A program made the position numbers and the translations under genes. This document shows positions 58,938 to 64,000 of a stretch of DNA of 64,000 bases, one piece after another; position 1 is the first letter of the stretch; every line of letters starts with the position of its first letter. The notes under the pieces are model-generated. The model searched no databases. It was not told where the DNA came from and saw only the letters and a program-made list of their open reading frames with translations. Source of the DNA: Planctomycetota bacterium (GTDB lineage Bacteria; Planctomycetota; Phycisphaerae; Tepidisphaerales; Tepidisphaeraceae); contig JBCDCH010000003.1 of NCBI GenBank assembly GCA_039182125.1, positions 1 to 64,000 on the forward strand, written 5' to 3'.

Positions 58938-60197
58938 GTGAGGTTTACTTTGCTTGCGCTGTTGCTTGTAGCCGTGGTCGGTTGCACGCGCGGTCCGCGC
59001 GTGCCTGACCTGGGCGGGATCTACAACGAGGCCGCGCAGGAACTCTCGGGCACACCTGATCGAAATCCGGTCATCGTGATCCCCGGCATCCTCGGCTCGC
59101 GGCTCGAAACGCCGGACGGGCAGGTCGTCTGGGGGCAGTTTGGCAGAGGTAGCGTCAATCCGCGGACCGAAGAAGGCATTGCGCTCATGTCCCTGCCCGC
59201 TGACGGGTCCGACGACGGTGTCCGTGCGGTCGGCGTGATCGACCGTTTCAGCCTCAATCTGTGGGGCGGCTTGGGTTTCCAACAGGCGGCGTATGAAAAC
59301 CTGCTCAAGACGCTTGGCGTTGGCGGTTACATCGACCGCGACATGAATTACAACCCGAGTGATAGTGTCGACTACGGCGAGGAGCATTTCACCTGCTTCC
59401 AGTTTCCCTACGACTGGCGGCGTGAGTTGAGCGAGTCGGCGATCGCGCTGCATGCATTCATCGAGACCGAGCGCGAGGTCGTGCGCCGACGGCGTATCGG
59501 GCTGTTCGGTGCCGAGGCGGTCGAAGCGGCGGGGCCGATCAAGTTCGATGTCGTCGCCCACAGCATGGGCGGGCTGGTGCTGCGGTACTACTTGATGTAC
59601 GGCCCGACGCCGCTGGACGAGGTGCCGGATACGCCGACCTGGGCGGGGGCGAAGTACATCGACAAGGCGATCTTCGTCGGCACGCCGCACGGCGGGAGTG
59701 TCGAGGCGTTACGGACGCTGATCGAGGGCAAACGATTCGCGCCGATCCTTCCGCATTACCCGGCCCGCGTGCTCCAGTCCTACCCGTCGATGTTCCAACT
59801 CGTACCGACGCACGAGTTGTGGCGCATTCCCGTCGGGGCACGCAAGGATGCCTTGCCTTTGGAAACGCTCGAGCGGCATGTGGACATGGCCGAACGATTC
59901 CATGCGGCGATCCGTGTCGAGGCCGATCCTCCCGCGAACCTGCGACAATATCTCTTCGTCGCGGACGCCATCCAGACCGCCGACAAGCTCGGCCCCGACC
60001 TGCGGACGGTCGCCAGTGCCCCCGGTGACCAGACCGTTACCCGTGATGCGGCCATCCTCGATCGCGACCCGGGGCCGCTGCTGGACAGTCCCATTCCCTG
60101 GGACCGAATCCAGTTCCTGCACACCGATCACCTCGGCATGACGCAGGACCCGGGGTTCACCGACAACATGCTGTTTCTTTTACTCATCCAAAAGTGA
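58938..60197 (+). CDS. lecithin:cholesterol acyltransferase-like lipoprotein
   Basis: A 419-residue alpha/beta hydrolase lipoprotein. Signal peptide with lipobox VVGC at residues 13-16; the enzyme domain starts NPVIVIPGILGSRLETPDG, typical of LCAT/PDAT-type acyltransferases and lipases. FPYDWRRELSESA is the conserved YDWR segment; the nucleophile elbow is VVAHSMGGLVLRYYL (Ser about residue 208); IFVGTPHGGSVEAL, a late Asp in ASAPGDQTVT and a His near HTDHLGM complete the expected triad. Probably acts on phospholipids or lipids in the envelope. The start is GTG 58938 without a clear Shine-Dalgarno sequence. It is 52 bp upstream of the flavin/Fe-S gene and probably co-transcribed. Confidence 0.88.
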   Translation: MRFTLLALLLVAVVGCTRGPRVPDLGGIYNEAAQELSGTPDRNPVIVIPGILGSRLETPDGQVVWGQFGRGSVNPRTEEGIALMSLPADGSDDGVRAVGVIDRFSLNLWGGLGFQQAAYENLLKTLGVGGYIDRDMNYNPSDSVDYGEEHFTCFQFPYDWRRELSESAIALHAFIETEREVVRRRRIGLFGAEAVEAAGPIKFDVVAHSMGGLVLRYYLMYGPTPLDEVPDTPTWAGAKYIDKAIFVGTPHGGSVEALRTLIEGKRFAPILPHYPARVLQSYPSMFQLVPTHELWRIPVGARKDALPLETLERHVDMAERFHAAIRVEADPPANLRQYLFVADAIQTADKLGPDLRTVASAPGDQTVTRDAAILDRDPGPLLDSPIPWDRIQFLHTDHLGMTQDPGFTDNMLFLLLIQK

Positions 60198-60249
60198 TAT
60201 GGACGTCCGGTGATTGCGGGAGGATGGTGCAGTTTTACGTGACACGCAC

Positions 60250-62742
60250 ATGAACCCCATCGCCGCATATACCAACTGGCTCCACACGCGCTGGCCCGCC
60301 GGGAAGCCCGAGAAGCTTCCGATCGCTGACGAGAGAGGCCGGACCAACGTCAAGGGCCTGTACATCGTTGGCGACCTCACCGGGATTCCGCTGCTCAAGC
60401 TCAGCGCCAACGCCGGTGTCAACGCCGTGCGCGAGATCGCCGAGGAACTCAAGGGCGAATCGGCGCAGGACGGCGTGCTCGACGTGGCCATCATCGGCGG
60501 CGGTACCTCCGGCTTCGCTGCGGCGACCGAGTGCGAAGAACTCGGCCTGAAGTACTGCGTCTTCGAAGCGAGCAAGCCGTTCTCGACGATCAAGGACTTC
60601 CCCAAGGGCAAGCCGATCTTCACCTATCCGACCGACACGCCCATCGAGGGGCGGATCTCGCTGCACGAGAAGTCGGACATCAAGGAAGGGCTCATCGAAG
60701 ACCTCGAGGAGCAGACCGTCGACACCGGGCTCAAGTGGGTCAAGGGCAACGTCACGCACATCGAGAAGGGCAGCCCGCTGACGGTGGTGCTCGGCAAGAA
60801 GGCCGAGACGCCCGAGAACGTCCATCTCAACGGCACCGGCTTCGTCACCGAAGGCGAAAAGATCAAGGCCAAGCGGGTCATCGTCGGCATCGGCCGCAGC
60901 GGCAACTACCGCTCCCTCGGCGTCCCCGGTGAGGGCATGACCGAAAAGGTCAGCCACCGCCTGCACGACCCGGCCGACTACTGCGGCAAGAACATTCTCA
61001 TCGTCGGCGGCGGCGACAGCGCGCTCGAGACCGCCATCGCCCTGACCAAGTGCGGTGCCGACGTGACGCTCAGCTATCGCAAGCCCGAGTTCAACCGGCC
61101 CAAGCCCGAGAACGCCGAGACCATCGCCGTTCTGGCCCAGAATCCCGAGGCCGAGGTCGGCGTCGAGCAATCCTCCGATCCGCGTCAGTCCAGCAGTGTC
61201 GGCGAATGGATGAAGGACGACGGCGGTTCACCCCCACCGAACATCGAGGCCAAGGGCACGCTCAAGCTGCTCATGAACTCCGATGTCACCGATATCCGAC
61301 AGGACGCGGTCGACATCAAGCTCAAGGACAACGGCGAAACCACGACGGTCGAGAACGATCAAGTTTTCCTGATGATCGGCCGTGAAGCCCCGCTTGGCTT
61401 CTTCCGCAAGTCCGGCGTGCGCATCCGCGGGGAGCGGACGCTTTGGTGGTGGACGTCGCTGATCCTGTTCCTCACCTTCTGCATGTGGATGTACCACTGG
61501 AAGGCGGGCAAGGGTCTGCTCGGCTTCGAGGCACTTGCCCCGGATGCGTGGCCTGGCTGGCTCGTCTGGGAACCGAGCGCGACCTGGCAAGCGGTCACCG
61601 GTTTATTCGCCGCGCCGTTCACCAACTACTTTCGCGCCGACGACACGCTCGGCGGCGTCATCGTCAACTCGATGGGTAGCCGGTCGTTCTATTACTCGCT
61701 CGCCTACTCGTTGTGCGTCGTCATCTTCGGCATCGACCGGATCATGCGCCGCAAGACGCCTTACGTGAAGGTACAGACCTACTCACTGATGGCGATCCAG
61801 GTGATCCCGTTGTTCCTGTTGCCGGAGATCATCCTGCCGTACATGGGCGCGACCGGCTGGTTCGACGGTGGGCCGCTGGGCTGGATCGCGGATCAGTTGT
61901 TCCCCGGCGGGTCCTACTGGCGGGCATACGGGTTGATCCTGGCGTGGCCGTTGATGGCGTGGAACTGGTTCACCGGCGATCCGATCTGGGGCTGGCTCAT
62001 TCTCGGCTTCGTGCAGACGTTCATGATCATCCCGGCGATGGTCTACTACCTCGGCAAGGGCAGCTACTGCGGGTGGGTCTGCTCCTGCGGCGCGCTCGCC
62101 GAGACGCTCGGCGACCGTCACCGCGAGAAGATGCCGCACGGGCCGTTCTGGAATCGGTTCAACATGGTCGGCCAGGCGATCCTCGCCTTCTCGCTAATCA
62201 TCATGGCCTTCCGCCTGATCGGCTGGCTGGCCGCTGGCAAGCTCATCCCCGGTGTCGAGGTCGGCTGGCTCATGTGGGCCGAGGACGGTTACGAGTGGCT
62301 CGCCAACAAGGCGCCGCTCATCAGCTTCGCGTGGTTCGTCGATTTGCTGTGGGCGGGCGTGCTGGGTGTCGGGCTGTACTTCTGGTTCTCCGGTCGATTC
62401 TGGTGCCGGTTCGCCTGTCCGCTGGCCGCGTTGATGCACATCTATCACCGCTTCGGCCAGTTCGCGATCATCCCTGACAAGAAGAAGTGCATCAGTTGCA
62501 ACGTCTGCACCAGCGTGTGCCACCAGGGCATCGACATCATGAGCTTCGCCAACAAAGGCCGGCCGATGCGTGATCCCGAGTGCGTAAGATGCAGTGCCTG
62601 CGTGCAGATGTGCCCGACCGGCGTGCTGAGCTTCGGACGTGTGAACAAGGACGGCGTGACCATCGCCGTCGACGGGCTGGCCGCCTCGCCGGTGCGGATG
62701 AAGGAAACCCAACTGACGGTCAACGGAAAGGCATTGTCATGA
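60250..62742 (+). CDS. NAD(P)H:FAD oxidoreductase fused to membrane [4Fe-4S] module
   Basis: 830 residues. Residues about 45-75 (GLYIVGDLTGIPLLKLSANA) look like the end of a flavin reductase domain placed first. A thioredoxin-reductase/YpdA-like FAD domain follows (VAIIGGGTSGFAAATECEEL, FEASKPFSTIKDFP), then an NAD(P)-binding fold (ILIVGGGDSALETAIALTKC), then FLMIGREAPLGFFRKSG. From about residue 395 there are six or more hydrophobic helices, with CGWVCSCGALAE and WCRFACPLAA loops as in NapH/NosR/CcoG proteins, and finally two ferredoxin clusters, CISCNVCTSVCHQG and CVRCSACVQMCPTG. It probably carries electrons from NAD(P)H through flavin and Fe-S centres at the membrane; the acceptor is unknown. 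The start is ATG 60250; the only GGAGG is 26 bp upstream. Its TGA overlaps the ATG of the DUF547 gene. Confidence 0.85.
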   Translation: MNPIAAYTNWLHTRWPAGKPEKLPIADERGRTNVKGLYIVGDLTGIPLLKLSANAGVNAVREIAEELKGESAQDGVLDVAIIGGGTSGFAAATECEELGLKYCVFEASKPFSTIKDFPKGKPIFTYPTDTPIEGRISLHEKSDIKEGLIEDLEEQTVDTGLKWVKGNVTHIEKGSPLTVVLGKKAETPENVHLNGTGFVTEGEKIKAKRVIVGIGRSGNYRSLGVPGEGMTEKVSHRLHDPADYCGKNILIVGGGDSALETAIALTKCGADVTLSYRKPEFNRPKPENAETIAVLAQNPEAEVGVEQSSDPRQSSSVGEWMKDDGGSPPPNIEAKGTLKLLMNSDVTDIRQDAVDIKLKDNGETTTVENDQVFLMIGREAPLGFFRKSGVRIRGERTLWWWTSLILFLTFCMWMYHWKAGKGLLGFEALAPDAWPGWLVWEPSATWQAVTGLFAAPFTNYFRADDTLGGVIVNSMGSRSFYYSLAYSLCVVIFGIDRIMRRKTPYVKVQTYSLMAIQVIPLFLLPEIILPYMGATGWFDGGPLGWIADQLFPGGSYWRAYGLILAWPLMAWNWFTGDPIWGWLILGFVQTFMIIPAMVYYLGKGSYCGWVCSCGALAETLGDRHREKMPHGPFWNRFNMVGQAILAFSLIIMAFRLIGWLAAGKLIPGVEVGWLMWAEDGYEWLANKAPLISFAWFVDLLWAGVLGVGLYFWFSGRFWCRFACPLAALMHIYHRFGQFAIIPDKKKCISCNVCTSVCHQGIDIMSFANKGRPMRDPECVRCSACVQMCPTGVLSFGRVNKDGVTIAVDGLAASPVRMKETQLTVNGKALS

Positions 62743-63680
62743 GTACCGCAAACCACTACGGAAAAGCCGGCTGGATCGCAGCCATCATCGTCAGCGTCGT
62801 CGTAACTTTCGTCGGCACGTTGCTGTTCGCGCAGAGCGTCTGGAGCCACAATCAAGGTCCGACCGCGGGCGCCAAGCCGACGACCAATCCCGCGACGCAG
62901 CCGGCGACCCAGCCCGGTGCCGGGTCCGCCGAAGCGACCGCGATGATGGGCGGTCCCAATGACACGCTCGTCTCCACCGCCGCCGGTAAGATCGCCGGCG
63001 TCGGCAGCTTCGACGGCACCATGGATGTCGATCACTCCGCGTTCCATGACCTGCTCCAAGCCCACGTCGACAACGAACGTGTCGACTACGCCGCGCTCAA
63101 CGGCGGGGCCGAGCGCCAGAAGTTCGATGCTTATCTCGACATGATGAGCAAGGTCGACATCGACGCGCTCTCCGAGGCCGAACGGCTCGCATATTGGATC
63201 AATCTCTACAACGCGTCGATGATCGAGGCGGTGTTGCTCGAATATCCCGTCGATCACGTCGAGAACGATCTCGGTTTCGGCGTGTTCAAGAAGCAGTTCA
63301 TCGAAACCACCAAGGGCACCATGAGCCTCGACGACATCGAGCACGCGACGATTCGCGAGCAGTGGGACGAGCCCCGCATCCACGCCGCACTGGTTTGCGG
63401 CGCGATCAGTTGTCCGCCACTGGCCGACACGGCTTTCACCGCCGAAAATGTCGACGCGCTCTTGGAGAAGAACTTCACGCAGTGGATCAACGGTGCCCGC
63501 AACGAGTTCGATCACGCGGGCAAGAGGGCCAAGCTCTCGAGCATCTTCAGCTGGTACGGCGTCGATTTCGGTGACTCGAACGCCGACACGCTGGCTTACA
63601 TCAACAAATACCTCGACCAGGACATCACTGGCTACAGCGTTGAATTCCTCGACTACGACTGGTCGCTTAACACCCAATGA
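62739..63680 (+). CDS. DUF547 protein, membrane-anchored and periplasmic
   Basis: A 313-residue protein. A single hydrophobic helix (GWIAAIIVSVVVTFVGTLLF, about residues 11-30) anchors it, then a Thr/Pro/Gln/Ala-rich linker (about 43-62). The DUF547 domain follows: FHDLLQAHVDNERVDYAALN, AYWINLYNASMIEAVLLEYP, RIHAALVCGAISCPPLADTA and FSWYGVDFG. DUF547 proteins have an uncharacterised cysteine-protease-like or transglutaminase-like signature (here ALVCGAISCPPL). ATG 62739 overlaps the stop of the flavin/Fe-S gene by 4 bp (ATGA), so the two products are made together; a DsbA-like gene follows after 33 bp. It may accept electrons or act as a periplasmic partner of the redox module. Confidence 0.88.
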   Translation: MSTANHYGKAGWIAAIIVSVVVTFVGTLLFAQSVWSHNQGPTAGAKPTTNPATQPATQPGAGSAEATAMMGGPNDTLVSTAAGKIAGVGSFDGTMDVDHSAFHDLLQAHVDNERVDYAALNGGAERQKFDAYLDMMSKVDIDALSEAERLAYWINLYNASMIEAVLLEYPVDHVENDLGFGVFKKQFIETTKGTMSLDDIEHATIREQWDEPRIHAALVCGAISCPPLADTAFTAENVDALLEKNFTQWINGARNEFDHAGKRAKLSSIFSWYGVDFGDSNADTLAYINKYLDQDITGYSVEFLDYDWSLNTQ

Positions 63681-63713
63681 TCGCCGCGTGCGACACGTCG
63701 CCTAGGGTTGAGC

Positions 63714-64000
63714 ATGCTTGATGAGGCCAAGCCGCAACTTGTTCATCCGGTCTGCAACGAGGATCACGTCAAAGGCGCAAAGGATGCGGTCGTCACCATC
63801 GTCGAATATGGCGACTACGAGTGTCCATCGTGTGCCAACGCGATACCGGTGCTCGACAGACTGATCGAGGACTTTCACGACCAGCTCTGCGTGGCGTTTC
63901 GGCATTTCCCGATGAACAGCGTCCACGCTCACGCCGGGGTCGCTGCCGAGGCCGCCGAGTGCGCCGCCGCTCAAGGTAAGTTCTGGGAGATGCACCACCT
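63714..64000 (+). CDS. DsbA/thioredoxin-like protein (cut by window end)
   Basis: Partial gene: about 95 codons are present before the window ends. The sequence has VTIVEYGDYECPSCANAIPV, with the active-site CPSC, then LCVAFRHFPMNSVHAHAGVA, typical of DsbA-family thioredoxin folds (Thioredoxin_4 type). No signal peptide is visible, so the visible part may be cytoplasmic or the protein may be a domain of a larger one; C-terminal fusion partners cannot be seen. ATG 63714 has AGGG about 6 bases upstream. It lies 33 bp after the DUF547 gene and is likely in the same operon as the flavin/Fe-S oxidoreductase. Confidence 0.85.
   Translation, partial: MLDEAKPQLVHPVCNEDHVKGAKDAVVTIVEYGDYECPSCANAIPVLDRLIEDFHDQLCVAFRHFPMNSVHAHAGVAAEAAECAAAQGKFWEMHH

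Follow-up and report, generated by a model that had tools for sequence, protein, structure and literature searches.

To our knowledge, synthesis of arsenosugars and arsenolipids has few steps assigned beyond ArsM and ArsS. In the arsenosugar route, ArsS adenosylates arsenic by radical S-adenosylmethionine (radical-SAM) chemistry (PMC12159101, PMC8552651). Two described redox proteins also bear on the locus considered here: the flavoenzyme YpdA, whose catalytic residue is Cys14 (PMC6591457), and CcoG, a membrane iron–sulfur (Fe-S) protein that acts as a metal-ion reductase (PMC7558416). We analyzed a stretch of 64,000 nucleotides (the window) from contig C3 of the 4.1-Mb draft genome of a Planctomycetota bacterium, near the end of which a single gene (hereafter, the fusion) joins a permuted flavin adenine dinucleotide (FAD)/NAD(P) module related to YpdA to a membrane Fe-S module related to CcoG; a gene for a protein with DUF547, a domain of unknown function, follows it. 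The fusion represents a real, widespread, and unnamed family of membrane enzymes, and our best reading of its genomic context is that an ArsM–ArsS–DUF547 system uses either of two interchangeable NAD(P)H redox modules, of which the fusion is one.

Results

An earlier note on the window had described the fusion as a YpdA-like FAD/NAD(P) part joined to a NapH-like membrane Fe-S part, an architecture supported both by domain searches (matches to Pyr_redox_3/2, Fer4_5, and the Fer4 dicluster) and by full-length conservation of the family. A one-genome-per-species scan returned 146 relatives, the best 80 of which match the fusion essentially over its full length at 46–59% identity, and the fusion is found in Planctomycetota, Verrucomicrobiota, Myxococcota, Desulfobacterota, Gemmatimonadota, Latescibacterota, Acidobacteriota, and other phyla. 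The window fusion and these best 80 relatives make up the 81 loci compared below; the corresponding alignment (A1) has 76 rows and contains 13 invariant cysteines, all within the membrane/Fe-S half. Its conservation over the whole length in 80 other loci, with 13 invariant cysteines, shows that the fusion is not a chance product. Neither NCBIfam nor Pfam, both searched, holds a model for the whole protein, and we found no description of the permuted fusion, of bacterial DUF547, or of the TIGR04282/83 cluster in a literature search that left subscription papers mostly outside its reach. The distribution of the family is patchy, with a full-length fusion in 5 of 26 genomes of the source genome's own family and in 34 of 294 sampled Planctomycetota genomes.

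The flavin module is a circularly permuted YpdA-like NAD(P)H-flavin reductase, a feature missed by the earlier note: the C-terminal segment of the module has been displaced to the N-terminal part of the fusion. Residues 76–392 align in order with residues 60–328 of ordinary YpdA-like proteins (hhalign, probability 100), and the same method places residues 31–52 on their residues 343–364, the terminal FAD-binding motif. Independently of hhalign, phmmer aligned fusion residues 25–67 to residues 313–352 of glutathione reductase. Structural alignment with VIA-align matched residues 75–394 of the fusion model to residues 2–271 of 324 in YpdA (7a76; Z 19), leaving the last ~50 YpdA residues unmatched in order. 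The displaced GD motif occurs in all 76 aligned members, with G41, D42, G45, P47, L48, L49, and K50 invariant. The fusion model is of fair overall quality, with a mean predicted local distance difference test score (pLDDT) of 82 and a predicted template modeling score of 0.80, but the ferredoxin end is poorly modeled; the matches listed by fold searches with this model were filled by flavin-domain structures.

The residue equivalent to YpdA Cys14 (in GGGPCG), at position 87 of the fusion, is Ser in 66, Ala in 9, and Gly in 1 of the 76 rows. No cysteine is conserved in residues 1–395 across the 76-row alignment, and a CxxC or CxxxxC arrangement appears there in only 3 rows, without conservation. 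We considered whether the flavin module might be a disulfide reductase and rejected this for want of redox cysteines, and the thiol substrate that the earlier note had envisaged for the fusion finds no footing in the family. Since every redox-active cysteine of YpdA and thioredoxin reductase (TrxR) is missing, the module is probably akin in its chemistry to ferredoxin-NADP reductases; judged from what is known of these families, it would resemble such a reductase and not a thiol reductase. The natural partner of TrxR-type ferredoxin-NADP reductases is a ferredoxin.

The membrane half contains CX3CP motifs of the NapH/MauN type and two C-terminal [4Fe-4S] motifs, predicted to face the cytoplasm. 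C607, C611, and C613 are invariant in 76 of 76 rows, as are both dicluster ferredoxin cysteine sets. Against TIGR02163 (NapH/MauN) the fusion scores 48.8 bits (E 6.7e-13), below the cut-off of 213. This relationship is what one would expect if the fusion were a NapH-like respiratory NAD(P)H:quinone or quinol:NAD(P) oxidoreductase with only an indirect link to ArsS, NapH being a quinol dehydrogenase subunit as described, and the presence of the fusion in some ArsS-lacking genomes fits as well. We nonetheless consider such a role improbable, as it explains neither the linkage to ArsS and DUF547 nor why, within those clusters, a MerA-like enzyme should alternate with the fusion (see below).

Topology was derived from family-mean hydropathy and lysine plus arginine (K+R) counts per loop, using the positive-inside rule only; the fusion model also shows helices in the membrane region. 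The FAD side and the loops at residues 495–508, 600–638, and 712–746 are rich in K+R, and the loops at 419–477, 535–557, and 661–692 are poor, so that FAD, the CX3CxC and CX3CP motifs, and both ferredoxin motifs are all predicted to be cytoplasmic. This prediction requires that the stretch around residues 556–575 not cross the membrane; that stretch is broken in the fusion model, and the sides of the fusion domains would change if it did cross.

These predictions bear directly on the proposal of the earlier note that electrons from NAD(P)H are carried across the membrane to a thiol step of the DsbA-like or DUF547 protein in the periplasm. The three genes are indeed adjacent in the window, in the layout given in that note: the fusion TGA at 62740–62742 overlaps the DUF547 ATG at 62739, and 33 bp separate the DUF547 stop from the DsbA-like ATG at 63714. 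In addition, the DUF547 protein is predicted to be exported and has two invariant cysteines. However, the redox centers of the fusion are all predicted to be cytoplasmic, the flavin module lacks a thiol-active cysteine, and there is no domain for a redox cofactor on the periplasmic side; with FAD and Fe-S predicted in the cytoplasm and DUF547 exported, a direct relay to the periplasm is unsupported. The DsbA-like protein (Thioredoxin_4, 74 bits; motif CPSC) shows no export signal: its N-terminus, MLDEAKPQLVHPVC, has no hydrophobic segment, and a periplasmic location is therefore unlikely. No other locus, among the 81 or the further whole-genome loci, has a DsbA-like gene beside the fusion. We rejected the DsbA-like gene as a member of the system because its adjacency is not conserved and it has no signal peptide, and we regard electron transfer to a periplasmic thiol step as very improbable. 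The fusion architecture and the coupling to DUF547 thus survive from the earlier interpretation, whereas DsbA membership, transmembrane transfer, and a thiol substrate do not; its author could not have seen that the fusion occurs in an ArsS/ArsM context and alternates with a MerA-like enzyme.

The DUF547 protein of the window matches PF04784 with 90.5 bits (gathering cut-off 27), and residues R213, H215, C220, C225, P226, and W272 are invariant in the DUF547 alignment (A2). DUF547 proteins adjoining the fusion mostly start with a signal peptide or anchor, which would place them on the opposite side of the membrane from the redox enzyme. Their genes are the commonest neighbor of the fusion, lying at most three genes away, upstream or downstream, in 17 of the 81 loci, and they recur near it in the further whole-genome loci; the genetic coupling suggested earlier is in this sense upheld. 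On a 94-row fusion tree, DUF547 adjacency requires 21 changes among 27 positive rows and is therefore not one inherited arrangement, and ArsS adjacency requires 10 changes among 13 positive rows; both adjacencies reflect repeated gain or loss, which parsimony cannot tell apart. The core of the DUF547 model is confidently predicted (pLDDT 83), and a Foldseek search of the Protein Data Bank (PDB) with it gave no fold match (best E 1.8), which is not proof of a new fold; a DUF547 profile search of PDB sequences gave a chance match only. In ArsS clusters, DUF547 occurs fused either to a glycosyltransferase 2 domain, as in locus L173 (L173:3345-5582), or to a TVP38-like part (DUF547 fusion loci: L173, L181, L182, L187, L188, and L190); these partners suggest that the domain belongs in a membrane or glycan setting.

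Several fusion loci have adjacent radical-SAM and methyltransferase genes, identified by NCBIfam as ArsS (TIGR04167) and ArsM-like. In samples of 294 Planctomycetota and 241 Verrucomicrobiota genomes, ArsS is present in 26 of 34 fusion-positive versus 66 of 260 (25%) fusion-negative Planctomycetota (phylogeny-blind Fisher test, p = 1e-8), and in 8 of 11 versus 8 of 230 (3.5%) Verrucomicrobiota (p = 8e-9, or 1e-5 after leaving out three genomes met earlier via loci chosen for this work). The genes are also physically linked: within 8 kb on one contig, where about 0.4% would be expected by chance, fusion and ArsS lie together in 10 of 26 genomes, fusion and DUF547 in 9 of 22, and ArsS and DUF547 in 20 of 61. 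The distance between fusion and ArsS is often below 5 kb. Operon-like clusters include L173 (TIGR04282-like, glycosyltransferases, DUF547, ArsS, ArsM, fusion) and L154 (ArsS, ArsM, fusion, DUF547), and the Verrucomicrobiota loci L178, L179, L194, and L195 look operon-like as well. A PiT-type transporter gene adjoins ArsS/ArsM in L187, L188, L190, and L180; it might import arsenate. The source genome itself encodes ArsS (381 bits, cut-off 300) and ArsM (NF038099, 523 bits, cut-off 400) in a compact group with a second DUF547 gene on contig C71 (L165:9638-12822), near which there is no fusion or close MerA-like gene. With fusion and DUF547 on C3 and the ArsS–ArsM–DUF547 group on C71, the window probably contains the redox half of an ArsM–ArsS system, split off from the rest.

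ArsS clusters without the fusion often carry instead a MerA-like FAD oxidoreductase (NF004991, with CxxxxC) and a TVP38/TMEM64-like protein (so named by eye), the latter sometimes fused to DUF547; the fusion-free loci viewed by eye had been picked for ArsS–DUF547 linkage. Among 92 ArsS-positive Planctomycetota genomes, 2 have both enzymes, 24 the fusion only, 41 the MerA-like enzyme only, and 25 neither (p = 1.4e-6), an alternation that looks like non-orthologous replacement. A MerA-like gene in L154 was rejected as a cluster member, as it lies ~7 genes from the fusion, on the other strand, and beyond transhydrogenase-like genes; our tally of MerA-like neighbors still counts this case. DUF547 also adjoins a MerA-like gene in the ArsS-lacking Planctomycetota genomes G046, G071, G086, G131, G292, and G300.

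The identity of the substitute informs two further explanations. If the fusion served as a one-electron donor to the radical-SAM cluster of ArsS via its C-terminal dicluster ferredoxin, the predicted cytoplasmic position of that end and the linkage to a radical-SAM enzyme would both be accounted for; but the substitute is a MerA-like dithiol flavoprotein without Fe-S, from which low-potential single electrons are not expected, and NAD(P)H by itself is a poor reductant for a radical-SAM cluster, so that we find this role hard to credit. Alternatively, DUF547 and a membrane NAD(P)H reductase could constitute a general envelope or metalloid/sulfur unit repeatedly recruited to arsenosugar clusters. 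Pairs of DUF547 and MerA-like genes in ArsS-lacking genomes (G046, G071, G086, G131, and others), along with fusion–DUF547 pairs without ArsS in G256, G132, and G101, speak for such a unit; the strong association of every part with ArsS across genomes and the predicted placement of DUF547 and the redox enzyme on opposite membrane sides speak against it, and on balance we judge it unlikely.

The features of the locus are collected in Table 1; neighborhood genes were predicted with our own simple codon model. An in-frame TTG at 60214 is a possible alternative start of the fusion. Directly upstream of the fusion lies an LCAT-like hydrolase gene (58938–60197), a relative of which adjoins the fusion in L073 also. 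Just past the window end, L004:6260-7024 encodes a secreted-looking protein without a Pfam match; relatives of it adjoin the fusion in L005, L019, L022, and L035, and a similar-looking gene sits between DUF547 and ArsS in L195. Other frequent neighbors of the fusion, ordinary by eye, are a glutamate-dehydrogenase-like gene (10 loci), histidine-kinase-like genes, and sigma factors.

Table 1. Coordinates of the fusion, its parts, and the two genes that follow it.
Feature	Position	Strand	Remarks
Fusion gene, permuted FAD/NAD(P) module plus membrane Fe-S module	60250..62742	+	830 amino acids from ATG
Second FAD-binding (GD) motif, TNVKGLYIVGDLTGIPLLKLS	60340..60405	+	Residues 31–52; normally C-terminal, here N-terminal
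FAD (GGGTSG) and NAD(P) (GGGDSALE) Rossmann modules	60475..61425	+	Residues 76–392
Membrane region	61435..62385	+	Six hydrophobic segments plus a weakly hydrophobic, possibly re-entrant stretch (residues ~556–575)
CGWVCSC, NapH-like membrane Fe-S motif (CX3CxC)	62068..62088	+	C607, C611, C613; Fer4_5
CRFACP, CX3CP motif	62404..62421	+	C719, C723; invariant in 76/76
Dicluster ferredoxin, two CX2CX2CX3C sets	62488..62613	+	C747–C757, C778–C788; Fer4 families
DUF547 gene	62739..63680	+	313 amino acids; N-terminal hydrophobic anchor; PF04784
DsbA-like CPSC gene	63714..64000, continuing past the window to 64259	+	182 amino acids; L004:5715-6263

Discussion

Linkage to ArsS in two phyla and alternation with another flavin reductase indicate that the fusion and DUF547 probably serve organo-arsenic metabolism. 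We hold with moderate confidence that the fusion is a cytoplasm-facing membrane NAD(P)H-flavin/Fe-S reductase that, with an exported DUF547 protein, forms the redox half of an ArsM–ArsS system. In our proposal for the direction of electron flow, the acceptor, and the role of DUF547, electrons would most likely pass from NAD(P)H to FAD, on to the ferredoxin-type [4Fe-4S] clusters, and through the membrane CX3CxC/CX3CP site to an acceptor, the likeliest being a pentavalent (methyl)arsenical intermediate that is needed in trivalent form by ArsM/ArsS. We favor a pentavalent arsenical because the MerA-like/TVP38 pair substitutes for the fusion and the related CcoG reduces a metal ion. More tentatively, the fusion may define an undescribed family of membrane organoarsenical reductases that, with DUF547, would be an overlooked component of arsenosugar or arsenolipid synthesis in bacteria, interchangeable with the MerA-like/TVP38 pair.

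Several points weigh against this arsenic-centered interpretation. Binding or reduction of an arsenical by the fusion is something that we infer. Our Fisher tests take no account of phylogeny, and genomes with the fusion tend to belong to other families than those with the MerA-like gene. In the source genome the fusion (C3) is unlinked to ArsS–ArsM (C71), although the genes are linked in other genomes; ArsS is absent from 8 of 34 and 3 of 11 fusion-positive genomes, some of them incomplete drafts; and 5 of the 10 linked Planctomycetota cases belong to one family (f22), in which unrelated genes intervene in the one case inspected (L177). Finally, the DUF547–MerA-like pairs of ArsS-lacking genomes allow for a wider DUF547-redox substrate.

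Among known systems, the arsenosugar enzymes ArsM and ArsS (NF038099, TIGR04167) are genomic partners of the fusion, including in the source genome, and we did not find the fusion or DUF547 named as a component of their pathway in the searchable literature. Our data point to two more components: one is DUF547, the other a membrane reductase using NAD(P)H that comes in two non-orthologous forms. Both candidates occur in many uncultured phyla, and the later synthesis steps become directly testable. If this is true, it would provide a first bacterial pathway for DUF547, a family of unknown function. The MerA-like NF004991 enzyme with TVP38/TMEM64 takes the same place beside ArsS, ArsM, and DUF547, but, unlike the fusion, it is unpermuted, has retained a CxxxxC redox disulfide (GGDCLNVGCVPSK), lacks Fe-S, and has as its membrane partner a separate TVP38-like protein or domain. 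NapH/MauN (TIGR02163), CcoG, and NosR have CX3CP-type motifs, a multispanning part, and a C-terminal dicluster ferredoxin in common with the fusion, which differs in its own NAD(P)H flavin module and its gene context. TrxR-type ferredoxin-NADP reductases (3ab1, 6gar, 6gas) have the fold of the fusion flavin module and likewise lack a redox-active cysteine, but are soluble, not permuted, and not fused to a ferredoxin. The best match in both sequence and fold to the FAD/NAD(P) module is the bacillithiol disulfide reductase YpdA/Bdr (TIGR04018; 7a76, 7a7b), from which the fusion departs in the permuted order of its parts, in the absence of Cys14 from 76 of 76 members, and in its attachment to a membrane Fe-S module; mechanistically, it is unusual for a FAD/NAD(P) reductase to be circularly permuted in nature and fused to the acceptor that it likely supplies with electrons.

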